Positions 6,701 through 64,000 of a stretch of 64,000 nt of DNA are shown one piece after another. Source of the stretch: Owenia fusiformis (Eukaryota > Annelida > Polychaeta > Sabellida > Oweniidae). The stretch is taken from positions 4,537,341 to 4,601,340 of the forward strand of contig CAIIXF020000008.1 in assembly GCA_903813345.2 (NCBI GenBank). Direction: 5' to 3'. The position numbers were made by a program, and so were the translations under genes. Position 1 is the stretch's first letter; each line of letters begins with the position of its first letter. Under the pieces are notes generated by a model. That model searched no databases. It worked only from the letters and a program-made list of their open reading frames with translations, and was not told the origin of the DNA.

Positions 6701-9700
6701 GCATATTGTACTGATTCCAAAAACTCAATTTATCGCATTAAAGTCCAAAACCTTTTTTTGAAAAATGTGAAGTCCTCCATAGGTTAAATTGCCAGTCACT
6801 CAGATCATAGTTAAGAGACAGCATGATATATTCAATTTTAGAAAAGTAAACGTATTATATGTAAATAAAGTATCCAAATCAGAATATAACTGTTTTGTAT
6901 CCCCTCCCACGATATGTTAAGGACTTTACCTATATTGATACGAGTGGTACATGAATGCAACTAATATAAGCATTAAAATAATCTGTAGTGGAATTATTGG
7001 CTTTTAACATGAAACATAACATATGCTGTCTATAAAATACAAGCTATGTTGTGATGGATGAGAAATTAATCATAGGTTTAGAAGCTATAATTCAGTTGTC
7101 TCATATCTAAAAACGATATGTTGGTTGAAGCATAACTATTGTTTCCACAGAAAGATGTCACCACCGGACATAAATGACATACTACTTCCCATGTTCTGTA
7201 AAGTGACTTAAGTAATTGAATGCTCCATATCTCATACCAAAATCTGTGATGAATTTTGCCATTTTTTTTTTTTGATAAAAAATAGTGGTATTTATCATAT
7301 TGTGTTTCGTTCAGTCATATGGTTGAAGAGGAACCAGAATATTGTCATATCAATGCTTGTCAAATTTTCTGCATAGTGACCATACACAGAATTTATAGTT
7401 TCATACAACCAGAACCCAAACGTTCTCAGTTAATATTGCTTGATATCAGTTAATATAGCTTGTTATTTGGTATTCAAGCACAGAATACTTCATCAGCACG
7501 AAGTGAGAATCTCCAAATGTGTGATTGCCAATCATTCAAAGTCTTTATTCACTAACAATTCATTATTTCATACAGTTGAAGCATTTGTATTTGCATTTGC
7601 CATGTATCACACATGTGACACATTTTTGGTATCCTTCCATCTTTCTCTGTTTGCAGCCTTTGCATTTTGAAAACAGATTTGTACCATGTTTACACTTTTT
7701 GCAGTAGTACTCACCTAAAATACAAGAAATGCATATAAGATGTAACATAACACAAGATTTATTTAAGAAGATACTGTTTATAGATATTGAGCTCTTTACG
7801 TAGTATTATATTCTATACTGTGACAGTGTTGCAGTTTTCTTAGTGTATTCTTCAAGAAGTAATGTTTGAGGGTTGAAGAGGTTAGCTTTAATACATTTTC
7901 CAATCACATAGAATTACATACTGTTTGGACACTTGGATTCTGGCATTGAGTCATTGTCATAGAAATTACCATCTGGGAAACACTTTGCATTATTCTCAAG
8001 AGAAGCACCTTTAGAGGTTAATTCACCAATCTGAAAGCATATGCATGCAAAAAGAGAAGAATAAAGGAAATGAAATGGTTAGCAATATACTATTAAAAGT
8101 ATATCAAATTAAATGATCTCTAATTATTGTGTGAAGTGTGTTAAATTGTTCTTAAAAAGGCAATTTCAGGTTCAAAATAAATTCAATGTAATTTTATCAT
8201 TTTTTACTGATTGTGAACAAAATAAATGCACTGAGTTATATAATGTTAAAAACCTTTCGTGGAGTCCCATCTGCTTTCCAGTAGAAAATATCATAACCAT
8301 TAACACTCTCCCAATCACGTATCTCAAAGTTCTGGCCTGAATTATTAAAGCAACTTAAATGTTAACAGGGATGAACTGTCAAACCTAAGTCATTAGATTG
8401 AACAGACTAGGTAAATAATTTGGTGAGGGGTAAGGGAATAATATAAGTTTATGACTGAATAGATTCTGCTTGGGCATATGTAGAGACAAATGGAGTATAT
8501 TTCATATCATTACATAACTGTGGTATCAAATTGCTGCACCAAACCCAACCAACCCAATTGGTATATTAATGATTAATTGACTGTATCCATTTGCAATTTT
8601 CAGTACTTGTTTGTGATAATGCTGACACATCCCACATGCCAACTCATACTTTTCTATTGCCACTATTTTTACTGTTCATTGATAGTAGGTTAGCTACATA
8701 AGATTATACCATTGACATCCTTGAAGGACATATTTCCCATTGTTTGAATAATCTCTTCTCCGAATGCTGTTCCAAATTCAGGACATACAGCCATGGCTCT
8801 TGACCCACATTTCTCTGTTAGTCTCTTCATGGTAGCTATACTGAGTGCATACACAGCATTTATCACATGCTTTACATAGGTGCTTTGACTATACTCTTCA
8901 AGTTCTGTTACGCTTCCCTTGGTAGGGCAGGTAGTGTTTTGACATTTGTGCATAGCTTCAAAGTACTTGTTGAAGAAAGGATTGGATGGACAACACCCAT
9001 ATCTGAAGATTAAGAGATAAGGCAATGATAAAAATAAGAAATAATAATAAAGTATATGTTGATAAAGTATAATAAATGTTCATCATTTCAATTTCAAGTA
9101 TTGTAAACCTTTTTGGGTTTTTCTTCAACATGTATCATAATGACTAGGTTATGCCTGAAATGTCACATGATCTTCTTTTGGATCGCAAAAATGATTCCTG
9201 AATGGTGGTGAACATTTTGTTTCTTTATAGGTTAGATCATGGTGTAATGACCTTCGATAGCAATTAGTTGCTACGTTTACAATCTCTGCTGTAGTGGCTA
9301 GCCTCTTTGGTAGAATTGGTAGAGTGTCTGACTTGAGAGTGGAAGATCCTGGGTTTGATTCCCGCACTGGGCATTGAATTTAGCACACTCCCTTTTGGGT
9401 CTAGTATCTGGCTCGTTACACTACAGCTCCCCGACGGATGTGCCCAAGGGTCGTTACAGTAGTTTGGGAAAAGTTGGGTTTCATTTCATTTTCTTTGTGT
9501 ATTCTATAAAATTCTCTTTGGTCTTTTCTCTTTTATCGTTGTGCTTACATATTTACTCAATATTTTATCAAGATGAAGTTGTCTAACCTGAGAGTTGCCA
9601 TAAATGCATCAAAAGCTGCAACATTCTCTCCATATAAAGAAACAGATATTGACCCTTTAGCAGCATCTTCGTGACCTTGGACCACATGTTCCGATTTCCC

Positions 9701-12700
9701 CCATGTCTCTGATCCAACAAATACTAAACCTACAATAATAGTTGATAATAAACATAGTGTTTTAATGAATTTCAACTAACAACATCAACTTAAATATATT
9801 TAATAAAATTCCAAATATCATTTACTCAAAAAGCATAGAGCATTTTCCATTGAAAGTAGATCACTGGATAAATATGTTGAGGTTCAACTTTAATGTTCAT
9901 ATATTCTAATTTTTGGGTTTTCCACTTTTGCCATTTTGCTTACATAATGTTGACAATGGTCACAATAGTCAATGTTATACAGTGTGTATCAAAAAAAAAC
10001 GCAACAGATTGTTATCTCGGAAAAGCACAAAACCAATGATAACAGCATTAATTTCATTCAATGCACCATAAAGCCATGTGTCTCCTCTTCACAATGATAT
10101 ATCATTCATTGTTGATATTTGGTCATGGTTGGGCGAGTAATCATTCCATTTGCAAAGTGGGCCAAAATAAGCTTTTGGCCAAGTTATAAACATCGCAAAA
10201 GTCAGTGTACGGAGCCTGATGCAATATTGGAAAAAAACATAAAACCAATGCTGACTTCATCCCTTTCATTCAATGTTCCAAAAAGCCAAATTACTTACCC
10301 AAGTTTTAAAAAATGCAAAAGCCAGTACAAAGGGCATAGGGGCTATTGGAAGAAGATGTGACAGGTGTGGCATAGACAGTAAAGTGTCCATACTCATACT
10401 CTTGCAAGAATACATCCTATACCTCTCCAAATTGCCACCACTTCCTTGCACATAAAGATGCGCTCAAAGCAGAGAAAAGCAGCCCATGGGCAATTCTTTC
10501 TCGAGGTTTTGCAAATCTAGTGGAGGAATTGTGAGCACAGATGCTCCTGAGATAGCTCCAAAAGAAAAAGTCACAACAATTCAATTCAGAGGAACTTCCA
10601 TTGGCACTTAGCCCTTGCACTGATTTTTGCAATATCTAAAACTTGGCCAAGAGCCGATTTTGACCCACTGTATAAACGGAAGGATTTCTCACCCAACCAT
10701 TATTACATGTGAATGATAGACATATCATTGGAAAGAGGAAAGATGTGGCTTTATGATACATTAAATGAAATTGATGTTGTCATCACTAGTTTTGTGATTT
10801 TACAAGATAACTACTTGTTGCGTTTTTTTGATACGCCCTGTATTGGCATTTATCAATATAGATCTTATCAACCTAGAGACTTGTCCTGCATGTTCTCACT
10901 TACGTTTGACTTTTTTATCTGTAATATGCGATTTCTTTGCTTCTAGTATGCTTCTCAATACATTTAACCTTCCTAAAACCAGAACTACATCCGTCTTTGA
11001 GGTGTTTCCCGCAATTGCTAAAATGATTGCTTCTGCATTTGATGAATTTGATTGAATCTAAAAATATATAAATAATTTAGTCTTCATTTAAAACGCATCA
11101 AATTATATTGCATTTACATTGCTTTGATTGTTGCATCATTACAAAGAAAATGTTTTTAAAATATTCTGTTAAGCAAGGTGAATCCCAAAACGTAAAATTA
11201 ATCTGGTAATTTTTTGATTGTCAAATGCTATAAGTTAAAACAAATAGATACATCCTTGTATTGACTTTAAATACAATTAAACAAACATTTAACCTTTTCT
11301 AATCAATAAATACATAACATTGATTGAAGTGTTTAATGAGGAATAACATAATTTCATTTTTTACCTGAAGAAAATGACTAGTTGATATACACCCCCCTTC
11401 TCGTAAAAATTCTGTCCTGAACTGCATTTCCAAGTCACTTGCATATGTTGACCCATCTTCAATGATGACATGCACATTAAACCAACCCACACGGATCAAC
11501 ATGGCTGCCAGGGCAGGACCCTGGATATACATTAGATAATTTTCAAGAGCCAGTTCAATTATCTGTTAACAGTCTTGTTTTTTTTTTATTGTAGATTATC
11601 ATTATATAAACTGGCTGATATATCGTTTGCATGGTTAAATATGCTTTCTAATTAACACATTTTTTAATTAAAAAAATATCTACTTTTTCATATTAAAAAG
11701 TATTGAATGATGCAACTGTAAGACTATAGACATTATATCTTAAATATTTACACAGACATTGTACAAGACCACAGCCTTTATTTTATGGCAAATCCATAGT
11801 GACATATTTGTTATTCTTATCCCATTCTTTAATCATATTGATACCCCGCAATGTCTGATTTTATATTTTGATATTTTAAAATTCCAAAACAAATCCTCAC
11901 CTGCTTGTCATCTGATGGTATGGTTCTAACAAAATAAGGGAACCTGGTTCTGTTGCTTAATTTTGGGCTTGATGCAAATGGTGCTACTAAAGCTGTCTTT
12001 TCAGTCTTCAAGTAATCAGCAAGTTGTATTGTTTTATCACTGTTAGATGATCCAACAACTCCAACAACCAATGAAGAATTAATTGGCTTGCCTGTTGGAT
12101 CATTTATCTTTATATAGCCCCTTAAGAATTCTTTAACCATTTGAGTTCCACGTTCAGCATCTTTACAGTCATCCATAATGATAGCACCAATTTTGACATC
12201 CAACTCGGCAAACTGTCCCTTTTGTCTATTGACTTTTTTTAGAGCAAATGCGACAGCATCTGTGTACTGGTAACCGGAGTTTGTGCGTATGCCTGTACAT
12301 CCTTCTTCTGTTAAGGCAAATACTGCCACAATGTATACATCACCCTCTATGACCACAAACTTGGGTTGTGGTATGATATGTGGCAAGCGTGGCATGATAT
12401 CTATAATGGCTGTGGACAAAGCCAGGATATTCACCAGGCTGAAGAATATTCCTCGAATCCACATTTTGATACCTGAAGGAGAGGTTGAGCATGAGTAAAG
12501 TAAACCTGGTAGACATTTTCAGTAAATACAACCCATTTTGGTGAAAATAAATTAATCCTATATCTGGCCTTGTCACGTGGCATCTTTTAAATAGATCTCA
12601 CACCCTAGAAGTGTATCAGTTAAGAAAAATCATAGGAAAGTTTACAGAATTTTCATAATGTGTACCTATCAAATTGCAATTTATTTATAAACTTTCTAAT

Positions 12701-21700: not shown

Positions 21701-24700
21701 ATATGGAACAAGCTAAGGATTGTAATGAATAATTGATGGATTTTAATGCAATATTACAGACATTATTCAATGTTATTTTCACATTGTTCAAACAATAGTT
21801 CTTTGATGTTTAAGCTTGCATTGAATGCAAATATAAATTACATTTGTAGACTTTTTCACTGCTCTGTATTTGAGAGGGGGAGGGGATACATGAATTTAAA
21901 GAGGTATCAGCGAAGGAAACTGTGCTGGAAATGATAGAAAAATGCAGGTTATAACACAAGAAATATAATTTTGGGATAATCTTTCCTGCAGTATATTCCC
22001 AGGTCTCAGCATATTACAGGGAAGCCTATTAGCGAGAAAGAGTTAAAAACTGTATTTTGTTATGATCTTTTAATGTAACATTTCAACTTAGAAAATACAT
22101 TTCACTTGCCATATAACCCCATTCAATAAATGTGCTTTACAAATTGTTCATTCATTATAATGGACTTAAGTGCCATTTGTTGAAAAATTGGCAAATGGCT
22201 TTTAAGAATTACTAAAACTGCAGAATAATGACACGCGAGTATTTTCTATATTCAGCTTATTTATACATGGGTAAAATCATTTTACAGTTAAATCACTTTA
22301 GATTTAATGCAAGGCCATTATGTGTTGGATTATAGCGTATTAGGGCTAAAACTCTGGAATTTAAATCAAATAAATGTTAAATTTGATCGAGTTTGTTCAA
22401 CAATATGATGTAGTTGGATTGTGGCCCTTCATGGATGGAATCAAGTTAGAAATTTATGGAACATATAATTTTTTGAAAAATAGGAATCATTTTCAATTAA
22501 AAGCTTGGAATAAAGTATCCAAAAGAATGCAATGAGAGCGTACAACTTCTCAAAACAATCATAACCATTATAGATATCCAAATAGGTAAAATTAAATCAT
22601 AATTCAAACTTGACATGGAATACATCATAGTTAAAAATCTGATAACATTCTTAAATTTGTGCATCTTCAGCGAGGCAGAGAATTGGTGAAGCTGTAAGTC
22701 GACCTGTCGAGAAGGAGGAGAAATTGAATAATTTGGAAAACTGCGTGAAGTTTTTAGAAAAACAAGGTGTAGATATGGCTGGATACTCATCAACAGGTAA
22801 GCTAAACGAGAGCCTTTAATCTGACATATTGTCATATTTTTGTAAGCTAGACAAGAGCCTTTAAATCTGGCATATTGTTGTATTGTTGTAAGAGAGATGA
22901 GAGCCTTTAAATCTGGCATATTGTACCTGTAGTTATTTATCTAAAGAAACAACATCACAAAACAGTGCCTTGGATTTAATATTTGGAATTAACCTTGACC
23001 TTTGCCTCATTTTCAGAATTAGCAGACGGCAACCTAAGGTCATCCATTGCGTTCATGAGCAGAATCAGGTCCATGTATGATGTGAGTATAGTTTCATATT
23101 TGTAATGATCCATTAAATCTTTATACTATAGCGTGGCATCACAGGATCTTTCCTGAACCAACCAACCACATTGCCGCAGGGTTTTGAGGATTGATTGATT
23201 TTTTTTTAAAATTCATATATGATAACCTCTGTTTTTATTATCTATTTAAAACTTCATTTTTATTTGGAAAGAATCAAATTCTGGTACTCTTTAAATTATC
23301 AATCATTGATGCTTTACTCTTTTAGCCAAATTATTCACAGAAAGATGTCTCTGCTAGTACCAATGGAGTAGGAAACAACCTTCTGAACCACAATAACCAG
23401 ACCCATGTTGTCACTGTGAACAAACAGAATGGACACAATGAACACAAGGTTGGCGAGACTACCAAGCAAGAGATTGCTAGGACAGGTAGGTGCAATTATA
23501 CTAGTACATTACACCATGGGAGTTTGAGTAATGCTCCCATGAGATTTAACAAAGCATACACAGTAAAAAAAACACATACACTTGCCCACCTTAATCCAAA
23601 AATGCAACCCCTCATCAAAACAACAAAAGACGAAATTGCATTTCCTACACACAGCACTTCAATAACAACATAAAACAATAGATGGCGAGAGAGAAGAATG
23701 TAAGAATGTTCAGTTTTTCTCATTATAGGTGGCAACCCGGTAGTTCCATTTATATCTTATGATATTTCATGACTACTACCAATAGAGGTCAGGGTTGTGA
23801 GTAGTGCCAAGAATTCCACAAATGTTGCAATGTTGTTTTAGTTCATATCCAGTATCATAGACCATGGCCAATGTTAAAATGTGAGACATGTGGCCGTGAT
23901 TTTTCAAATCATTGAAAAATATCTCCTGATCAAGCCATTAGAGCCTTGAAACAGAATTTACCCCTTTTATAAGGTGCCTGAACAAAGGTTAATGCCTTAT
24001 GTTCACCTCACCTGAATCAACTACACAAATTATTAAAATGTTTCTTTCTTTTTAGATGCAGCTAATTTTCCTCAAGATAATTACATAGTGTGATAGATAC
24101 CTGACTTTTGTTTCCTAGCAACCATTCATCAGAAACATGCCTGAATCTTTGTTTTATCAAAATGTCATCTCAATCATATTCATGACTTCATGTATTTTTT
24201 AGATAGATGATTGATATTGACGACCCCATAAATTAGATATCATGATTGACATTTTTGAACTGTAAAATACAGTGAAAACAGAGAGATCACCATGGAAATA
24301 ACTAAATACATGTCTTGCCAACACTCTAAATTGTATAGAAATGCAAGAAAATCGGACACTTCATTCAAATTTTAAAGAGAATTGGTGTGTAATAAGCATG
24401 ATTAAATTGGAATTTAGTCCAAGAGTTGTGTCCGACATTTGATACTGAGATCATGCTGCAATTAACATTTTGTCTATGATACGGCCTCAAGGCAAAAATG
24501 TCTTTGTTGATTCTATCTTTTGTATTTTATGTAATCAATAACACGTTTCCCCTTTAAGTATGTATACAATGATCACAAAATAAATGATGTCACATACACG
24601 GCTGGATGAGATCAGAAATCATGACCAATGCTCTACAGTTAAATATCCAGGTCCAGTACACTTAAGAAATTAGAACAACGAAAATGAGGAATATTCAAGA

Positions 24701-27700: not shown

Positions 27701-30700
27701 ATGATGAATGTGCATCAAAGTTATTGAACAGCCCTCGTATTGTACGTTCTCAAAGCTCAAAACAGAAACAGAGAACATGAGACAAGAACAAAGCATATAA
27801 ATGTTCCACTTTAGCTGGAAGGATACACCTTTTTGTTACTCCTTTTGTTAAATGCATGAATTCATTAATAGGATACATTTTCAATATGCTGATTCTGTCA
27901 GGTAAGACCTTAGCATTAAGCTTTTTGTTCTGGTCTGAGATTACAAAAATGGAAATACAGTATGTGAGTATTAATTATTAGAATGCCAGATGTATTTGAA
28001 AATAAGGCTTCTATAGATGCAGAGAATCATTTGACATGTCATTTTCAGGTTGTCTATTGTTCACCTCGAAGTGATCAATCAAGTAAATCATTTGAAATGG
28101 AATCCTGATAAATTCACCATTTCCATGTTAATATATACCCATGGATGACGTTTTATGAAAAATGCTTATTTCACACAAAAAGAGGAATAAAGAGTACATT
28201 ATCAAGGAAAAGGGTGAACTGATATTGAGTCAACCTTCTTGAAAGTATACAGCATATATTATTGAAAAGGAAAGGTGAGATTTTAGAAAAAGATGAAGTG
28301 GAAAGAATGTCATTTACTTGATGTAATTAATATTAGGGTTGGGCTTGAGATGGTTTTACTTCTCTTCTTTCAAAAGTAATAGTTGAAAGAAAAATACAGA
28401 ATTATTTCAGAACTTATTTTTATATCACATTTGTAATTGTCAGATAAGTAAACTTGAATTTGAGTCTACATGCACAGAACAATGATGCGTCATAATAAGT
28501 CATACTACTACTTACTACTTGCGATTTCAGAATGCATTTCCCAGTTTAACCAATACTAAAGGGATCAAAGTATGACTGAAGGGAGACCTTGGTTTAACAG
28601 TATGTCTCAAAAGGGTCTCCCTTTGAAAAGTGACATTTTCAAAGAGTAATTACTGGTTGAAATGGTCATTTACAAGGCTATATGTTAATATGATATTATT
28701 GGACTTACAGTATAATGAAAGATGTCAGTATCACGCTGGGCATAGAATCAAGTGAGAGAATCTATTTCCAAACTTTGACAGAATGGGGTATTCATTTTTA
28801 CTTTCATTGTTCGATATTCTGCAGAATAACCAGGGATATCAAGTTCCAAGTTATGACTTTCAACAGTGGTTAACATGTTTGTAATTTCTCATTTTTCTTG
28901 TATTATATTAACAGTTACCCTTTGCATTTCTTTGTTTTGATTCAGAACATTATCCTCTGACTAAGGACCTTAATAGTCTCAAGTATAACTTGTGGATATG
29001 AATATTAGCTAATAAAGGAAGAAAATATAATCTTTTGATTTCTGAGTACACAATCTGATTGGATAAAAGGCTGCAAGGAAGAATTGTCTGAATTATCATA
29101 GAGTCTATGAAGTCAAATTTATTGCAAAGGGTACCTGTCAACCCTCCCCACCCATGTATTTGATCGCCATGGTGAGGGCCAGAGTTCACGTCAACAAGTC
29201 AAAGTTGACATATGCTCTAGAACTAATGATAATTCCAAGAACAATACTAATCAACAGTGTAGACTGTCATATATCAAAAATAGTGCAAATAGCGGGAAAA
29301 TCCTTTAATTTCACAGTTACACCTGCAGATTTATAAATCATGCTTATCTTTTTATTTGATAGTTCATTACTACAATTTTAATTTCTATTATTACTTTCAT
29401 TTCATAGTCACAGGGGTACCTCTGTTCTATATTCGATAACACTAAATATTCTGACTTTGAAATGAAATGAAATGTCAAATCTAAACTGAGGTTTTGAATT
29501 AGAAACTAAAGTCTGAAACTGATAGATTAAATGTTTTGAATTTGAAGGCCTTGAATTTCAACTGAGGGTCTGTAATTTATAATCTTGAATAATTCAGAAT
29601 GTCTAACTCAGTCTAACTTCTATAAATTGAGTAAGTGAGCATTATATGCAACCTATGTTAACTTTCAATTATAAAATCCATAATATTAGATACTATTACA
29701 GTAAACCTGTCTAATCTGAATCCCACAGGGACTGGCTAAAAGCATTCAGATTAGGAGGTGTTCACATTTCGAGGTTTTTGCATTCACGAAATTCAAGATT
29801 TTGAAGAATTGTGAACACATTTGACCACATAGCTTTATGGAAATTTGAAAATTTGATTCAAATGAATCTAGTCATGCTGAAATGCCCTATTATGATTGAG
29901 ACCATTCATGTTTTTTCCCAAAGTTGACAATATTTGAGCAATTTTTCAAATATGACTGTTCACTGTTTAAATTGGGAGGTGTTCACATTTCAAGGTTTTT
30001 TAGATTTTTAGATTTTAGATTAGCCAGGTGTTCAGATATACAGGTTCTACTGTATTTCAATCAATTAAGACATTCAATTGCATTGCCTTAGGCAATTTTG
30101 GAATAAGTTCTTAATAAATAATTATTGTCAATTCATTATATCAACAAATACTATGTCAGCTGAATCAAATTTTACAGAAAATCAGAAGATACATTTTTCT
30201 TACTTAACATCATTAGAACTGATTTCCTGCTGATTGAAGAAATTTATAGTCTTATTTACAAATAGTTTCAATTCATGGGGTATTAAAACTCTGAAATAAC
30301 ATTTATCGAAAGTATCTAAATTGTTCTAAATAAATTCATCTGGTTAGTCTTTCTAAATTAATCATATTTTCCTTTTGTCTTAACCATACCTTGTTTTTTA
30401 ATTTGTGACGTTTCGTCCAGCATGGTCGCTTGACTTTTTCGAACTGCTTGAAGTTGATACTTGATCTTGAGAGTTAATTAGCACTTTATTCCACAAACTT
30501 GATAATTCGTGATTGCCTGAGTCTCTATTCATACACTGTTTTTATTTCTTTATGTAAATTGCCTCTTTTATCCACCGTTTATTTCTCTGACCTTCATTGT
30601 CTATAACCTTGACGTTATCCCAATCAACTACATGGTTCATCTGACGCACATGATCAGTGACTGCTGATTTCCCATATGATGACTGGGCTTCTTTCCTAAC

Positions 30701-33700
30701 ACTTCTTGTATACCTAGTCAGTCCACAATCAGAGACATCTTTCTTATGTTCTGATAGTCTTATATCTAATTTCCTGCCTGTCTCTCCAATATATACTTCT
30801 TTACACGAGCTACATGGTATTTCATAAACTACATTTGACTTATATAGCAACTTGCGCTTGTCTTTAGGGTGAACTAATATCTGCCTTAATGTTTTAACTG
30901 GTTTAACGGTTGAAGATATCTTGTGTTTCTTTAAAATTCTTTTAACCTTCTCTGTTACACCTTGGACATATGGTAAAGTAGTAAACCCAATCCTATCTTC
31001 CTTATCTGCACTAGAAGAGGCTGTTTCTTTGTCATCTCTTAGATATAAGACTATCAGAACATAAGAAAGATGTCTCTGATTGTGGACTGACTAGGTATAC
31101 AAGAAGTGTTAGGAAAGAAGCCCAGTCATCATATGGGAAATCAGCAGTCACTGATCATGTGCGTCAGATGAACCATGTAGTTGATTGGGATAACGTCAAG
31201 GTTATAGACAATGAAGGTCAGAGAAATAAACGGTGGATAAAAGAGGCAATTTACATAAAGAAAGAAAAACAGTGTATGAATAGAGACTCAGGCAATCACG
31301 AATTATCAAGTTTGTGGAATAAAGTGCTAATTAACTCTCAAGATCAAGTATCAACTTCAAGCAGTTCGAAAAAGTCAAGCGACCATGCTGGACGAAACGT
31401 CACAAATTAAAAAACAAGGTATGGTTAAGACAAAAGGAAAATATGATTAATTAAGTATCTAAATTATTCTACAATGCTCATAGTATGCCCAGAATGCATC
31501 TCTGAGAGTCGAAACACAAGCGAGTGTTCTCTTTGCATTAAGTGCATTTTACTTGTGTACAAATAATCATTTGGATAAAACTTGACTTTTTTAAGTTCTT
31601 TAAGTTTGCTCAAAATTTCTTGAACAAAAGCAACGCATGTCGCTTACCGGAGTGGTTTGTTGAATTAAGATTAAATTGACATTTTGTACAAAATAACAAA
31701 TAAAACATTCAAAGATATTTTCAAGGTTTCATGTTTAGAACTAGCTGGGTAGGCTAGGGATGGACCATGTTGCTTTATTGTTAATTCTTCATATAACAGT
31801 GAAAAAATGTTTTTGAAAGTATAATACAAATGTTTCTGTGACATCATATATTTACATTTAGTGCTTTGAAAATTACGTATTGCATACTTTATTTTTTCAA
31901 ACATGATATTAATATTCGATATCGCGTAAATGGTCCAGCTTTTCGATGATTAAACATTCTCTATAAGTCTCCTGCCATGTATTTATATTCAACTCAATGG
32001 ACTTAGGGCTAATTGGTTAAAAGAAATAGAATCTTGCTAAAAGAATCATATTTTTACAAGAGAAATTATTGGAATTTTCTCTATTATTTGGTTATTAGGA
32101 AACTGTTTGCATGAAAAAGAAATCATTGGATTGGATTTGACTATGAATGGCAAACCACTGACTGAATAAAAGTTTATTTCTTTGAGTTGTTATATATGCC
32201 ATGCTCAGTGTCACCTAAGTTCTAAAATCATATTTTCTCGAAGGTTGTGTAGCAGTTGGACCTGTACAAACTAAAGGTAAAGAATTAAACAATTTAAAAT
32301 TTAAAAATTGTTTTTATTGAAATAAGGTTTTTTGATTAATAAGATTAGTACTAGGTGTATGTAAAATTTACATATTTTTCAATATTGATGTTGTCTATAA
32401 TTAATTTTCAATTTTTTAAAAGTAATTTGAGATTTTTGAAACAAAAATAACATGTTCTACTAATAGGATTTAAAGAGAATAAACAATAAGACATGCAATG
32501 TGGCTTAATCCTCAGATTCAGTTTGTTTGTATTCACCCACATGCTTACATACGGATTCTTGCCACCTTGAGTAAAATTTCAAAATTGCCCATGTTTTCAA
32601 TTGCAAAATAGAGTGAACAAGAGAGTATTAAGCAAGGAATAAAGTAAATAGGCATGTAGTTAACACTCTAAATTGTATGGAAGTGCAAGAATATCACAAA
32701 CTTTATTTAAATTTTAAAGAGAAAATCATAGAAAACACATAGCAGACTTGATTTCAAACGTCGGTATTTATGTATTCTTAGGTAGGAGGATTGACTTGTA
32801 GTGCTAGCTGAGCTTATGGTTCGCAAATATTAGTCAAAGGTGATGTCACAATTGTTTTCCTGTCTCAATATTATAACCTATAAATAGCCATCAGGATGAC
32901 TATGCAAACTGTTCCAGGTATTAATAGAATAACCGAAAAGTAAGTAAGATGTGATGAATAATTTTTGAATGTCTTCAAATAACATGTGTGATTTATCATT
33001 TTGGATAGTTTTCTAAATGGCAATGAGGGGTAAGTTTACATGGATATGATTTCTTATTAACACTGATCACATATGTCATAATAAGAAATAGATTTTAATC
33101 TATTGTAACTGCAATAGCTTTACTTTCTTATTTCCATCATTTAGTTGGTATTTTCAGTTAGTTGATTATCTTAGCTGATATTATTATAACAATATGACAA
33201 CAGAATATTAACTTTTGATATAGAGATGCCTAATAATAATCTAGAATTGAAATATGACAATTTGTTTCTACATTTACAGGTGTGAAATAAAAAGATAGAT
33301 AAAGAATCATAACTTGAAAATGAAAATTAATTTGACGAAAGTGGAGACGTCATTGTTCATAAAGGGCAACTTGACCACAGTAATTAATCTCCAATTATAA
33401 TGATGAATTATTTCAATTAACTAACTGATCCTTAGCCTATCGGGCTACATACTTCCTTAATTCCTTATTAATTACTTCAGAAATTAAATAGTGCTATTTT
33501 GTCAATTTTTGTGACTTCTCCCCATTTCTATTCTTATCTAGAGTACCGATTTTACATGTAGATTTCAAATATGATATCGTTTTGACTGAATATCTAATGA
33601 TGTAATTTAAGATTATTTGTACTTCTTGGAGCATTTTTTTCATTTGTTTCATTCCACAATCTGTTTTGATATATCAATTGGACGTATCATGATTGGATAA

Positions 33701-54700: not shown

Positions 54701-57700
54701 CTAGACTTGGTACTAGACCATGGAGACCCCCCCCCATATCTACTTCAACAACTGTTGAAGCAAGATTCTTTTTCTGTATTTGAAATATGAATACAGCAAA
54801 AGTGGTGGCACTGAATCTTTATTATTCAAATCAAAATAGGCAACAAGATCAATCTATCAAAATAGATATTCTTGAATTTCATTTTGCTGAATAGGCGTTA
54901 TACATGTATACTTGATATACTATATGTAAACATGTTATATAGAAACAGAATGATGGGTTATTTCATTATTTAGGGCTTATGGAAATCAGACCAGGCAAAT
55001 TAAACCATATATTGATTTATAACTGTTTGAATCATTTTTTGGGGTTTGATATTATTGTTGTTGGACTGACTCTCATACCCATCAATGATTATGAACTCGT
55101 TTTGATCAACAACAGTAGTGTTTTTTGATAGGTATTAATTGACTAAGTCCTCTATTTATGTAACTGTATGAACTGTGATGAATTATCAATGCAAACATTA
55201 TGTAACATGTATTTTATCAACTTAATTGAAACAACATGATATCTGAGGGTGGTCCACTATTGACATATCAATGGCCTTTAATCTCTACTTTAATCCTAAT
55301 CCTACTTTGTAGCCCCTAATCCCATTTTTACAACTGTGTTTAATAACTTTCATCTCAACGAGATATTTAATCGAATCATCCCGAGATATTATAATATCAT
55401 ATTTGAAGTGTCATTAAATAAATTATTTTTTAAATCTCATACACTTCAGTTTTGATTTAAAATAAACATATCTTTTCATTTTTCTGGCAAGGAAATGATT
55501 ATATACCTGTGTTACCTGTATATTGATGTATAATTTACATACTTTGACCATGTAGGGACTTAACAGTAATCACTTTCAATATTTGTCTATTTAACTGTCA
55601 AAATCATATCCAGAGGTTTTTAAATCAAGTTTGAACATTGAATCTTGATTGAAAAAGGGCTGGAAAAAAGGGGCAGGCATCAGTGTTTTACAGTTTTAAT
55701 GTTGTTGCCAAAAGTGAATTCTTAAATGACACTACAACTTAACCAGGGTATAATCTGGGATGGTTTTAATCATTCACTTAAAGTTTTATCCGATTCAGTT
55801 TCAAATCCAACTGTTCATCAACTGAATAGATTAAAGAGATTGTTAAAAATTCAAAATGATGAATGGAAATGGAGAAATGGTTAAAGGAACAAACCTTAAC
55901 CGGAGGTACAGTAATAATATTTGAATTTGATAATTAATGTATGTATGTTGTAAACTGGTAAATTATTCAATGTATGTCTAATCATTTTTGTTTCATTAAC
56001 ATGGTATTTGGTGTTAAATTGGAAACCCTTGTAATACATCAGGTTTAAACCAAACAGTTATATGAAAAATTTTACAAATGACCAACAAAAACTGTTAATA
56101 CTCAACAATCAGGGAATTCTACATTGTATTACTAATAAGCGCTAATACATTCTAAGACCTTAAATACCTTAAGAACTTAAAACAACATACCATGTTCCGT
56201 TATTTTTGTCATACAAATTTTCATAACTACAGGCTTATTGCAACACAAACATAGCAGGACTAAACTAATAAGGTTACGATTTCTGAGAAGCATTTGAGAG
56301 AATTGCTCACGAACTTGTATGAGGATAATTATAATTCTTACTTTATTGTGCTTTGCAGCGATACTGAGAAGACGGCGAGTAATATTCGTGACTTGTGCAG
56401 TCGGCTCTACGGGACCAATGTCTCCTCTGTTAGGAAACCTGGATTTACTACTGTAAGTATAAAAGAAATAAAAGATGTGATTTTTATTTTTAAATTTTTT
56501 TTGAATGGCTATATTGAGAAATATTCTTTCAGTTATGTTTTTTTCAAATCATCTGGTTCAACTAAATCACAGAACTTCTTGATAATCACTTTCACATGTT
56601 ACATGTATGAATGCATAGTTGATTATTTAACTCTTCAATAATTTCGGAAAATCCAATATTAAAATTGGGTAGCTTATTTTTATTTGATGTTTTATAAGTG
56701 AAATAATTCAATATTTCCAGAGTGCTTCAAAGTTGAACTCACCCTACCAGGACTCCACTCAAAGATCAAGTCCCCAGGGTCAAAGTTCAAGCCCCCTCAG
56801 TAACAACTCCTCCACTCAGGGGCACACATCAATGGAGAGGCCACCCTCCTATCAACCTCCCCCACCCCCTCCAAAACCCCATTATGTGACATCACCGGAG
56901 ACTCCCAAGGGGAATCCACCTTACTTGAAGCCTCCACCATACCCTTCACCTAGGGATCACCCCTTAGAGGAGCCTAAGCCAAAACTACCCCCGAGGAATA
57001 AAACTACTGCCCCAGCGTCCCCTGTGAGAACCCATCGACCAATGGGAAACCAGCAATGGAATCAAAATCTCTCAAATCAGAACACTGAAAATGGATTTAC
57101 AAAAATACACAATATGCCAGGAAACCAAAATAAGCCACATGTACAGTTCAAAACAGACAATAACGCACCAAACAGGACACCTGTAGCATCGAGAATGATG
57201 CCTTATGTCAAACAATCAACCCCTCAGGACCATAATCAGTTGCTAGGCAATGACCAATTATACTCTCAGGACTTTAGTTCCAGTTCATTGAACATTTTTA
57301 ATATGACAGGGAAATCCCAAGATGTGTACCCAGATTATGGCATTCACCATGGAGATATTGTGGATATTAATGATGTCACAGCTGACGTATCATCTCTAAG
57401 ATCAGTGACGCCACCTTTACCTCCTCTCTCCCCAAACATGACACCCCCTCTCACCCCTGAGGATTCCCCCAGGGGTCTTCCAAAGTTCCATAACAGATCT
57501 GTAAGTGCAATCAACTTAAAAAATGCTCTCTCAAATAATGCCCTCTCGACGGCTGCACCCGATGTTGTGACATCAGCATCAAAGCTAAAGAAGAAGAAAC
57601 CAACACAAACTGGTATGAGAAGATCACTAAGTGGGCACCCAAATATGAAGTATGAAGATCGGAAGTATCGCAAATCTAAGTCACGTTCGAAGACTCCCAA

Positions 57701-60535: not shown

Positions 60536-61555
60536 AGGTGATACTCATGTGTTAGGATGGCATGTGAAGGTGTTTTTGGCAGGTGTTTTGAAAGTGATAC
60601 TTTTGTGTTATTGAGGTGATAGGCAGGTGTTATAAATGTGTTGGATAGGTGTTAAGGTGTTGCTAGTTGTTGTTACTAAGGTAAAACAAAGGTTGTATCG
60701 AGGTGATAATCAGGTGTTTTATTAGATGTTCAAATGTTATAATGTGATACTTGGGTGTTATTAGTCTATTGCTCAGGGGTTATTAAGGTGTTGCTCAAGT
60801 GTTAGGTATAATTAAGGTGTTGCTCCGGTGTTATCAAGGTGATATTAAGGTATTATTCAGGTGTTATCAAGGTGACATTCAGGTGTAATTAAGGTGTTGC
60901 ACATGAATTATTAAGGTGATACTCGGGCATTATCGAGGTGTTAATATGGTGATACTCAGTCGTTATCAAGGTGATATTTAAGGTTATACTCAGGTGCTAT
61001 CAAGGTGATATTAAGGTATTATTCAGGTGTTATCAAGGTGCCATTCAGGTGTAATTGAGCTGTTGCACATGAATTATTAAGGTGATACTCAGGTGTTATC
61101 AAGGTGATACTTAGGTGTTACTTATGTGTTATCAAGGTGATACTTAGGTGTTACTCATGTGCTATTAAGGTGCTTTTCAGGTGTAATTAAGGTGTTGCAC
61201 ACGAGTTATTAAGGTGATACTCGGGCATTATCAAGGTGTTAATATGGTGATACTTTAGGTGATAATCAGGCATTATCAAGGTGATACTTAGTTGTTTATC
61301 ATGTGCTATTAAGGTGCTTCTCAGGCGTTAATAATGTGTTATTAAAGTGAATCAAAGTGATACCTAGGTGTAATATATGTGTTGGTCAGGTGCTATGTTA
61401 TCAGGGTGTTACTAAGGTGATTTTAAGGTGTTACTCAGGTGCTATCAAGGTGTTACTCAGGTGCTATTAAAGTGTTACTCAGGTGCTATTAAAGTGTTAG
61501 TCAGATGTTATTAAGGAGATACTCCTGTGTAAAAAGGTGTTGCTCAGATATACAT
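60536..61555 (+). repeat. About 1-kb degenerate minisatellite, 11/22-bp period
   Basis: Units alternate between TGTTATCAAGG and TGATACTCAGG, so a 22-bp unit is built from two related 11-mers. Dozens of diverged copies occur. It starts about 1 kb after the CH-SAM stop and ends just before the retrotransposon tail. Confidence 0.85.
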
Positions 61556-61649: not shown

Positions 61650-64000
61650 TATATTATTACTATTCAATTTCAATTTCAATTTATTCATACATTTAATCAT
61701 TATGTGTACCTATATTATAAATAACAGGTGGCACCACAGGTGATGCTTATACCCGTACATATAGTAGTTAAATCATATAGCATATCATTATGTTGTCAAG
61801 GAATCAAACCAGAATGTAATCACAAAAGTTAGGTAAATAAATAAAGGTTGTGGGGGGATCCATGATGCTCATTTCTTTTGAAGCCAAGAAGGTGCCATAT
61901 GCCATGGGAAAAAAATTATGAATGTGTAGTTTCAATAATTATTATTTAAAGACGCCAGGCTACCGCGTTGACGCCAATAATTTTCTAAAAGTGTGATTCT
62001 TATAAAATATTAGTTATTATTGTACCTTCCCCAAGGTTGGTACGATCAGAATCATTGTGTTAAATCGTCAGTAGTTCGGGGCAGCCCCCAGGTCGGCCCA
62101 TGTACCTCCCTTGAGAGCCTACCCTAACTTCTTAGCGAAGAAACAAGAAGTGACACAGTCAACCAATGATTAATAAGCTGAGAGAATATGTTTCTTAAGT
62201 TTTGATTTAAGAAAAGAACTTGAATTTGACTTTTTTATTTCTTCTGGGAGACTGTTCCATATGGATGAACCACTAAAGGCTATTGTTTTTTTGCCATAGT
62301 TTTCAGTTTTTGTTTTAGGAAGGGTAAAGTTTGATTTGCCTCTAGTGTTATATCTATGAAAATCTCCATGGGTTTTGAAATAATCTGGAAAAATAGTTTT
62401 ATAATTGTTTATATCATTTTTCCATTTAAAGACAAATTCAGCAATATTGATTTTATATATATCATGTATTTGTATGATTCTAAGCTCTTTAAAAAGTGGT
62501 TGACTGTGGTCTCTATAGCCACTTTGAGTTGCCAACCTAACAAATCTCTTTTGTATCAAGTGTAATGGATTAAGAGTTGTGGGATTTGTATTACCCCATA
62601 TTATGTTACCATATGTAAGGTATGAATGAAACAGGGAGTTGTAGATAGTGATAAAAGTTTTTCTGTCTAAGATGTGCTTGATCTTAAAAAGAATCCCCAG
62701 TGTCCTGGAGAGTTTAACTCTAATCATACTTATGTGATCTTTAAACATTAAATGTTGATCAATGATCAAGCCTAAAAAATTTGTCACAGGGACTCTTTCT
62801 ATTTTTTGATCATTAATAAGAATTTGTATGTCATTACCATTGTATATTTTCTTTTTTGAAGAAAATATTATGTATTTCGTCTTTTCAACATTAAGTGAAA
62901 GTTTATTTGTTTCAAGCCATGCTTGTATTGTTTTAAGTTCTTGATTCAGAGTAGTTTGTAGGTCCACTAATGTTTTTCCATTGATTAAGATATTTGTGTC
63001 ATCTGCGAATAGGACAAATAGAAGATCTTGTGAGGTCAAATAAATATCATTAATATACAAGATGAAAAACAAAGGTCCCAAAACCGAACCTTGAGGGACA
63101 CCACAATGAATAGTTTCAGCTTTTGAAGTAGATTCGTTAAACTTTGTACTTTGTTTTCGATTTGTGAAGTAACTAGAGACCCAACCTAAAGCTGGCCCTC
63201 TAATACCGTAAAATTCAAGCTTTTGTAATAGTATATTATGATCAATCGTATCAAAGGCCTTGGAAAAATCTAAGAAAAGACCTATACTAAATTCACCCTT
63301 ATCAATCGACTTCTTAATTCTCTCCACAAACTGTAAAACAGCCATATATGTTGACCTTTTCTCTCTGAAACCAAATTGGTTTATATACAAAATTTCAAAT
63401 TTAGTGATAAAACTGCTCATTCGATTAAACATTAATTTTTCCAAAACTTTTGAGAAAACTGGAAGAACTGAAATTGGTCTATAATTGGTAAAGAGATTAA
63501 TCTGTTCTTTTTTATAAATCGGAGTTACTTTTGCTATTTTTAATTTATCTGGAAAAATTCCCTTTTGAAAAGATTTATTAAAGACATGCAGAAGTGGTTT
63601 AACAAGCTCATTGTTACATTGTTTCATTACATCAGGTTTAAGATCATTTATTCCTGCTGCTGAATCTTTAAGCTTTGTCAGTTCTCTTTTAAGTTCTTCA
63701 CTTACTATAGGGATTAAAAATATGCTTGAAGGTTGAGAATTAAGTTTTTTCATGAAGTCAAAAGGAGTTCTATCTGTTTTAGGTATTTTTGAGGCTAGTT
63801 TTAATCCAATGTTAGAGAAAAATAGATTGAACTGGTTAGCAATCTCCTGATTATCTGTGATTTCTCTGTCATTTAACAAAAAAGATGTTGCATTGTTTGA
63901 TTTATTCTTAGATCGATGAAGTAGCTCATTTATTATTTCCCAATTGCTTTTAATATTTCCCGCTGCAGCCTCAAATTTCTTCCTGTAAAATTGTTTTTTC
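61609..64000 (-). mobile_element. Non-LTR (LINE-like) retrotransposon, 3' half, with poly(A) tail
   Basis: The element reads on the minus strand. The ORF ends at 62170; a 3' UTR of about 520 bases follows and contains a short ATTGAA repeat and AATAAA just before a 39-base A tract (T run at 61609-61647). This is the expected end of target-primed reverse transcription. The 5' end and the far target-site duplication are outside the window. Confidence 0.85.
62170..64000 (-). CDS. Non-LTR retrotransposon reverse transcriptase, 3' part of ORF (runs off window)
   Basis: The frame is open from the window end to a stop at 62170-62172 (about 610 residues visible). Reverse-transcriptase motifs in order: KVTPIYKK, NYRPISVLPVFSKVLEKL, NQFGFREKRST, FLDFSKAFDTIDHNILL, GVPQGSVLGPLFFILYINDI, the catalytic FADDT, then LSLNVEKTKYIIFS and TNFLGLIID. 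The C-terminal region (HRYNTRGKSNF, SSIWNSLPEEIK) is typical of CR1/Jockey-group elements. The apurinic endonuclease half would lie beyond 64000. The ORF shows no internal stop, so this copy may be young. The clade assignment is tentative. Confidence 0.9.
   Translation of the reverse strand, partial: KKQFYRKKFEAAAGNIKSNWEIINELLHRSKNKSNNATSFLLNDREITDNQEIANQFNLFFSNIGLKLASKIPKTDRTPFDFMKKLNSQPSSIFLIPIVSEELKRELTKLKDSAAGINDLKPDVMKQCNNELVKPLLHVFNKSFQKGIFPDKLKIAKVTPIYKKEQINLFTNYRPISVLPVFSKVLEKLMFNRMSSFITKFEILYINQFGFREKRSTYMAVLQFVERIKKSIDKGEFSIGLFLDFSKAFDTIDHNILLQKLEFYGIRGPALGWVSSYFTNRKQSTKFNESTSKAETIHCGVPQGSVLGPLFFILYINDIYLTSQDLLFVLFADDTNILINGKTLVDLQTTLNQELKTIQAWLETNKLSLNVEKTKYIIFSSKKKIYNGNDIQILINDQKIERVPVTNFLGLIIDQHLMFKDHISMIRVKLSRTLGILFKIKHILDRKTFITIYNSLFHSYLTYGNIIWGNTNPTTLNPLHLIQKRFVRLATQSGYRDHSQPLFKELRIIQIHDIYKINIAEFVFKWKNDINNYKTIFPDYFKTHGDFHRYNTRGKSNFTLPKTKTENYGKKTIAFSGSSIWNSLPEEIKKSNSSSFLKSKLKKHILSAY

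Follow-up and report, generated by a model that had tools for sequence, protein, structure and literature searches.

The window analysed here, 64,000 nucleotides (nt) of the 498-Mb Owenia fusiformis assembly (C8:4537341-4601340), carries on its minus strand a gene for a Venus-flytrap (VFT) protein that resembles the ectodomain of metabotropic glutamate receptors (mGluRs), ends in a cysteine-rich tail and has no seven-helix domain. It belongs to a multigene family that, in the reading we favour, may have become soluble when such a tail took the place of a membrane anchor. As originally predicted, eight exons between 12464 and 7563 join in phase (1653 nt, a single terminal stop, all introns GT-AG), though the product has 550 residues rather than the 564 first reported, a figure that is the length of exon 1 in nucleotides. 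The other proposed features were recovered: the N-terminus is signal-peptide-like as judged by hydropathy (2.31 for the 12-mer at residue 10), Pfam ANF_receptor matches residues 69-457 (E 2.1e-41), 11 cysteines follow the VFT domain, and an AATAAA begins 14 bases past the stop codon. Of the solved structures, that of the mGluR7 ectodomain matches best (E 1.6e-33), with 119.7 bits against mGluR7 and 55 bits against CaSR. A scan of the window against Rfam at gathering scores was negative.

The absence of a seven-helix domain concerns both the protein and its surroundings. The family 7tm_3 is unlisted in the Pfam scan of the protein at E<=10 (filters drop most matches above about 0.1), and the highest internal 19-mer hydropathy is 1.56. 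A genome search listed at least 72 7tm_3 matches. Among the 72 listed, none lies within 1.5 Mb of any family locus: the closest to any of them is ~1.5 Mb away (C5:1.22 Mb to C5:2.77 Mb) and the closest to the window gene on its chromosome 2.07 Mb, which leaves splicing from exon 7 onward into helix exons unsupported. Since this search runs exon by exon, a poorly conserved helix exon may escape it; whole helix domains beside all family genes are unlikely to do so. For the class C cysteine-rich domain (CRD), we find that the CC.W.C..C pattern is indeed lacking from the window tail and that NCD3G is unlisted at E<=10; the only trace in the protein is a linker cysteine aligned with the first cysteine of the CRD. 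The same genome also holds class C receptors with a CRD and seven transmembrane helices (7TM). At one further locus (L026, C12:12478900-12486500) three consecutive VFT frames, the first partial, stand ahead of a class C 7TM frame; the locus may hold additional VFT-only genes or receptors with more than one VFT.

When the genome was searched for paralogues, as had been suggested, exons of such genes turned up on C2, C4, C5 and C115, and other C8 positions gave matches to the tail. Six further complete genes were rebuilt from genomic DNA (C115a, C2a, C2b, C5b1, C5b2 and C4, the last with exons 7-8 located ~14 kb beyond exon 6). All seven models, including that of the window, consist of eight exons with identical intron phases, and their last exons are homologous and finish with CFNC plus 2-6 residues. 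Because six paralogues in the same genome share the eight exons and the homologous tail, the window gene is real and not a truncation accident. For C115a, C2a, C2b, C5b1 and C5b2 the agreement in phases and splice sites is partly built in, because the script demanded the same phases and GT/AG sites; the open frames and the homology across all eight exons are independent of these requirements. Exon 1 is 48-69% identical to that of the paralogues and 33% to that of C5d (a tailless relative, see below). Intron 4 of the C4 paralogue contains a minisatellite with a period of ~69 bp, made of copies of the 3' end of exon 4 and seen as about thirty overlapping matches (at about 2364-4980 of C4:29922300-29932299, read reversed).

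The family also includes incomplete copies (C5c with exons 1-3, in a region containing a 500-base gap; C115b with exons 4-8; C4up with exons 6-8) and two decayed remnants (C5c_up, in which exons 7-8 are left and the tail is interrupted by stops; a second C115b piece with a stop). These five were left out of the VFT tree and of the ratios of nonsynonymous to synonymous substitution (dN/dS), while the tails of C115b and C4up entered the tail tree. For the VFT, dN/dS is 0.13-0.57 in the 34 of 36 gene pairs that gave a value (dS exceeds 1 in many), and by this measure the domain is under purifying selection.

The tail is best regarded as a separate module and not as a truncated linker or CRD, in line with the first proposal of a disulfide module: its CxxC spacing is regular, and Kunitz/WAP exons are followed by a homologous exon at four places. 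Across nine aligned tails the eight cysteines of the four CxxC pairs and CFNC are all invariant. Three tails scanned alone gave no Pfam family above the curated cut-off, and a profile of the nine tails against PDB gave no credible match (best E 0.59). Two tail queries, run genome-wide at E<=10, found 12 and 13 places (14 combined), ten being VFT genes or fragments and four lying behind Kunitz or WAP exons; a Kunitz-tail query retrieves the window tail at E 5.7e-9. The Kunitz/WAP genes are known as exon frames, and 14 of the 15 frames scanned before the Kunitz-associated tails match Kunitz_BPTI or WAP at E<0.01 (13 above the curated cut-off). The remaining one has no Pfam match and is WAP-like by eye; two further Kunitz-like frames are outside this count. 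AG precedes the window tail and each of the four Kunitz tails, and all five are entered in phase 1, as read from the frame.

In identity the window tail reaches 57 and 59% to the C8 Kunitz tails against 42-50% to three VFT tails (in a second alignment 56-58%, against 41-51% to six VFT tails). The dS values of 1.27 and 2.07 between the window tail and the C8 Kunitz tails led us to reject a recent gene conversion between them. Most likely the CxxC tail folds on its own disulfides. A single-sequence structure model of the tail was left unused (best mean predicted local distance difference test score, pLDDT, 67.4, the other four 34.5-52.6; predicted template modelling score, pTM, 0.37).

Two relatives lack the tail. 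C5a, whose VFT is 59% identical to that of the window protein, has exons 1-7, the last of which continues via a small-residue stretch to a hydrophobic terminus and a stop; there is no tail exon within the next 7 kb, nor one nearby among the genome-wide tail matches listed. In C5d (31% identical) a single exon encodes the VFT, and the next one, a homologue of exon 7, closes the gene with a C5a-like ending. Both share the linker cysteine with the tail-bearing members, and the homologue of exon 7 is their last exon. Hydropathy of the C-terminal 15-mer is 2.07 in C5a and 2.22 in C5d against 0.07-0.56 in the seven tail proteins; by this measure a hydrophobic C-terminal signal of the glycosylphosphatidylinositol (GPI) type is absent from the window protein and its six tail paralogues, whereas the termini of C5a and C5d look like GPI signals. 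In the VFT tree, rooted with four receptors that we picked, C5d is sister to the other eight members (branch 100/99). An ancestral membrane anchor is the simpler reading for the family.

The ligand pocket was compared among nine family proteins, mGluR7 and three relatives from the same genome, with sites named in mGluR1 numbering. We take Ser165, Thr188, Asp208, Tyr236 and Asp318 to be the mGluR1 pocket numbers, and presumably mGluR3 Arg68 is the same site as mGluR1 Arg78. In each of the nine family proteins the Ser165 site holds Ser, the Thr188 site Ser or Thr, the Asp208 site Asp, the Tyr236 site Tyr (a one-residue insertion being needed there in eight of them) and the Asp318 site Glu. At the two sites whose names, Arg78 and Lys409, come from the accessible text of PMC6307864, the former is Tyr in 9/9 and the latter Glu in six, including the window protein, and Asp, Val and Lys in one each (Lys in C4). 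As aligned, the pocket keeps the residues expected to hold an amino-acid backbone and loses those for the glutamate side chain. The covalent mGluR dimer is made through one particular cysteine, and the corresponding cysteine is missing in the family. The lobe-2 cysteine (Cys232 in the window protein) is kept in all nine. Because C5a retains, besides the conserved pairs and the leader, just the lobe-2 and linker cysteines, a disulfide between lobe 2 and the linker is suggested for the family.

Features of the window gene and related stretches (positions within the window unless a contig is given)
Feature	Position	Strand	Description
Exon 1	11901..12464	-	564 nt, phase 0 out; start ATG, signal-peptide-like leader, VFT lobe 1; ANF_receptor match
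Exon 2	11365..11520	-	156 nt, phase 0-0; VFT, pocket Tyr, lobe-2 Cys232
Exon 3	10904..11057	-	154 nt, phase 0-1; VFT lobe 2
Exon 4	9588..9729	-	142 nt, phase 1-2; VFT lobe 2, pocket Glu in VGSETW (Asp in the compared mGluRs)
Exon 5	8710..9002	-	293 nt, phase 2-1; VFT, two conserved cysteine pairs
Exon 6	8254..8336	-	83 nt, phase 1-0; end of VFT
Exon 7	7922..8030	-	109 nt, phase 0-1; linker to the cysteine aligning with the first CRD cysteine of a class C receptor of the same genome (C9)
Exon 8	7563..7714	-	152 nt, phase 1 in; cysteine tail, four CxxC pairs and one Cys, CFNCMK-stop end
AATAAA polyadenylation signal	7544..7549	-	read from sequence
Plus-strand coding-like stretches	~500-745; strongest from ~46021; weaker between, e.g. 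22661-22813	+	
Kunitz/WAP-associated tail exons	two at C8:5.05-5.06 Mb, two at C5:18.76 Mb		genome-wide tail search

The original prediction also placed the gene antisense within an intron of another gene. Plus-strand coding-like stretches do lie on both sides of it and would suit a host gene with a long intron; nesting in such an intron is plausible. Nine plus-strand open reading frames (ORFs) were scanned and gave no Pfam family above the curated cut-off by which a host gene might be named. Matches below it, to ACT_9, SlyX and Vac_Fusion, were disregarded. Also on the plus strand, 56688-59038 holds proline-rich and coiled-coil-like ORFs with no Pfam match above the cut-off. Elsewhere in the window, an inverted repeat at 30353-31455 (417-nt arms, 100% complementary, 269 nt spacing) carries a weak GIY-YIG match (E 7.3e-4, below the cut-off) and is perhaps a young mobile element (we would guess Penelope-like) or an assembly artefact. 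On the minus strand at 62173-63999 a 609-residue open frame resembles, by eye, the reverse transcriptase of a non-LTR (long terminal repeat) retrotransposon, and a degenerate tandem array with an 11-bp period occupies 60567-61551.

Taken together, we favour (at a probability of roughly 0.6) the view that these genes, from one genome, encode secreted amino-acid-binding VFT proteins that were once membrane-anchored and were made soluble by a secretory module replacing the anchor. A class C (mGluR-like) receptor gene would have been cut off at its first CRD cysteine, and the shortened receptor would first have ended in a GPI anchor, as is still predicted in C5a and C5d. A new 5' splice site ahead of the anchor signal, along with a phase-1 last exon of the Kunitz/WAP type, would then have given a soluble protein. 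Its VFT would close around a free amino acid, which is probably one other than glutamate, with Cys232 of lobe 2 presumably paired to linker Cys498 in the manner of the VFT-CRD disulfide of full receptors. Most likely the tail would retain the protein in whatever extracellular secretion or matrix contains the Kunitz/WAP proteins, and there the protein would buffer or present the ligand.

Several observations weigh against this scenario. The tail tree joins the window tail to the C8 Kunitz tails (89/88, not starred), apart from the tails of the paralogues, although a single clade of all VFT tails stands (p value of the approximately unbiased test, p-AU, 0.109). In the VFT tree C5d is a long branch, and neither a grouping of the window gene with C5a (p-AU 0.397) nor one of all tail genes together (0.396) is rejected, while both are absent from the best tree; a single gain of the tail and two gains are each compatible with this tree. 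The closest paralogue pairs carry the highest VFT dN/dS (0.52 and 0.57), indicating weaker constraint, and in the tail dN against dS is 0.163/0.201 for C5b1-C5b2 and 0.053/0.035 for C2a-C2b, thus little constraint there. Signal peptides and GPI ends were called from hydropathy and by eye. Finally, any disulfide scheme is guesswork because the cysteine totals vary among the tail proteins (17, 18 or 20).

A different role for the tail deserves consideration, although we hold it to be distinctly less probable: it might keep the VFT attached to the surface of the cell or to a partner in the membrane, the protein then serving as a co-receptor or ligand-presenting subunit and not as a free binder. 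Both tailless relatives look anchored, an odd cysteine total (17) in three members would permit an intermolecular disulfide, and SmGBP of Schistosoma mansoni is, in the accessible text of PMC3206071, tightly membrane-associated without a 7TM domain. Nonetheless, the tail lacks a hydrophobic stretch, as the low hydropathy of the seven C-termini indicates, and its homologous exon follows Kunitz/WAP domains. Such domains often belong to soluble proteins. That the tail is instead a strongly diverged class C CRD (NCD3G) seems very unlikely. It is placed after the VFT as a CRD is, the last exon of the window gene encodes nine cysteines, and in the alignment the linker cysteine falls on the first CRD cysteine of a receptor from the same genome; we rejected this identity on the regular CxxC spacing, the lack of CC.W.C..C and the fact that NCD3G is unlisted at E<=10 for the whole protein and the three lone tails (filters drop most weak matches), and the homologous module behind Kunitz domains also speaks against it.

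To the two remaining explanations we give hardly any credence. Were the gene a full-length class C G-protein-coupled receptor with its helix exons elsewhere, seen here as a splice variant or through faulty annotation, the clear homology of the VFT to mGluRs would fit, and the exon 7 donor could in principle join further exons, but the homologous tail and stop recur across seven models and the listed 7tm_3 matches lie at the distances given above (2.07 Mb for the window gene, none within 1.5 Mb of a paralogue). Equally far-fetched is a decaying pseudogene family: the broken or partial copies (C5c_up, the second C115b fragment and C5c) would suit it, whereas nine genes, that of the window among them, have open frames and canonical splice sites (the script admitted GT and AG alone) and VFT dN/dS is below 1 in 34 of 34 values.

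Under the favoured reading, that of a soluble binder derived from an anchored one, the family would illustrate how a secreted binding protein could arise from the sensor half of a membrane receptor, and a single genome would hold the possible intermediates: CRD + 7TM receptors, anchor-like VFTs and tail-bearing VFTs. The tail itself is a module without a credible Pfam match (three tails) or PDB match that is common to two unrelated kinds of genes. More speculatively, it might be argued that the exon-shuffled CxxC module is an address tag sending flytraps and Kunitz/WAP inhibitors, though unrelated, to one extracellular compartment, and that its replacement of a GPI anchor gave soluble amino-acid binders. 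If true, the periplasmic binding proteins of bacteria or the odorant-binding proteins of insects would be analogues of such address-tagged binders. Glutamate-receptor surveys that demand transmembrane helices would overlook genes of this kind; the accessible text of one metazoan mGluR survey (PMC6307864) states that sequences missing two or more helices were thrown out.

A VFT without 7TM is already known from flatworms and therefore less surprising here (PMC3206071, accessible text). SmGBP is described there as a truncated, VFT-only mGluR that binds glutamate; homologues occur in S. japonicum and a planarian, and its authors found such sequences in flatworms and not in other invertebrates. 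Like SmGBP, the window protein is a gene-encoded VFT without 7TM, with an N-terminal hydrophobic peptide, its own polyadenylation signal and mGluR homology. The differences, as far as that text goes, are that SmGBP (488 aa) lacks the cysteine-rich linker and all beyond, whereas the window protein has a new tail; that SmGBP keeps the glutamate-site Arg (mGluR3 Arg68), where the Owenia family has Tyr in 9/9; and that O. fusiformis has a multigene family with GPI-like relatives. Beyond SmGBP and papers citing it (PMC4862687, in its accessible part, merely cites it), the literature search, which covered few subscription journals and is weak evidence, returned, among the papers listed, no other stand-alone secreted mGluR-like animal family and no paper combining Owenia with Kunitz; one listed title concerns a Plasmodium VFT antigen (PMC13199436).

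The pocket also has known counterparts. In the accessible description of mGluR class IV (PMC6307864), Arg78 and Lys409 are replaced, backbone-binding residues are kept and another amino acid is suggested as the ligand. The window protein matches this description, with Tyr and Glu at Arg78/Lys409 and Ser, Ser, Asp, Tyr and Glu kept; unlike it, paralogue C4 has Lys at the Lys409 site. CaSR, according to the part of PMC4977154 at hand, binds L-Trp at S147, S170, Y218 and E297 and has a C236-C561 link. The pocket Ser, Ser, Tyr and Glu and the lobe-2 cysteine of the window protein are similar (positions equated by reading, CaSR unaligned), yet a CRD and 7TM are present in CaSR and absent from the window protein, which scores higher against mGluR7. 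With the Kunitz/WAP clusters of its own genome it shares the homologous phase-1 exon, the four CxxC pairs and the CFNC end; the clusters, however, have protease-inhibitor bodies and no VFT exons in the stretches examined. Overall, the kind of protein is already known, and what is new relative to the literature found is the tail, the anchor-like relatives, the size of the family and the sharing of its last exon with Kunitz/WAP genes.

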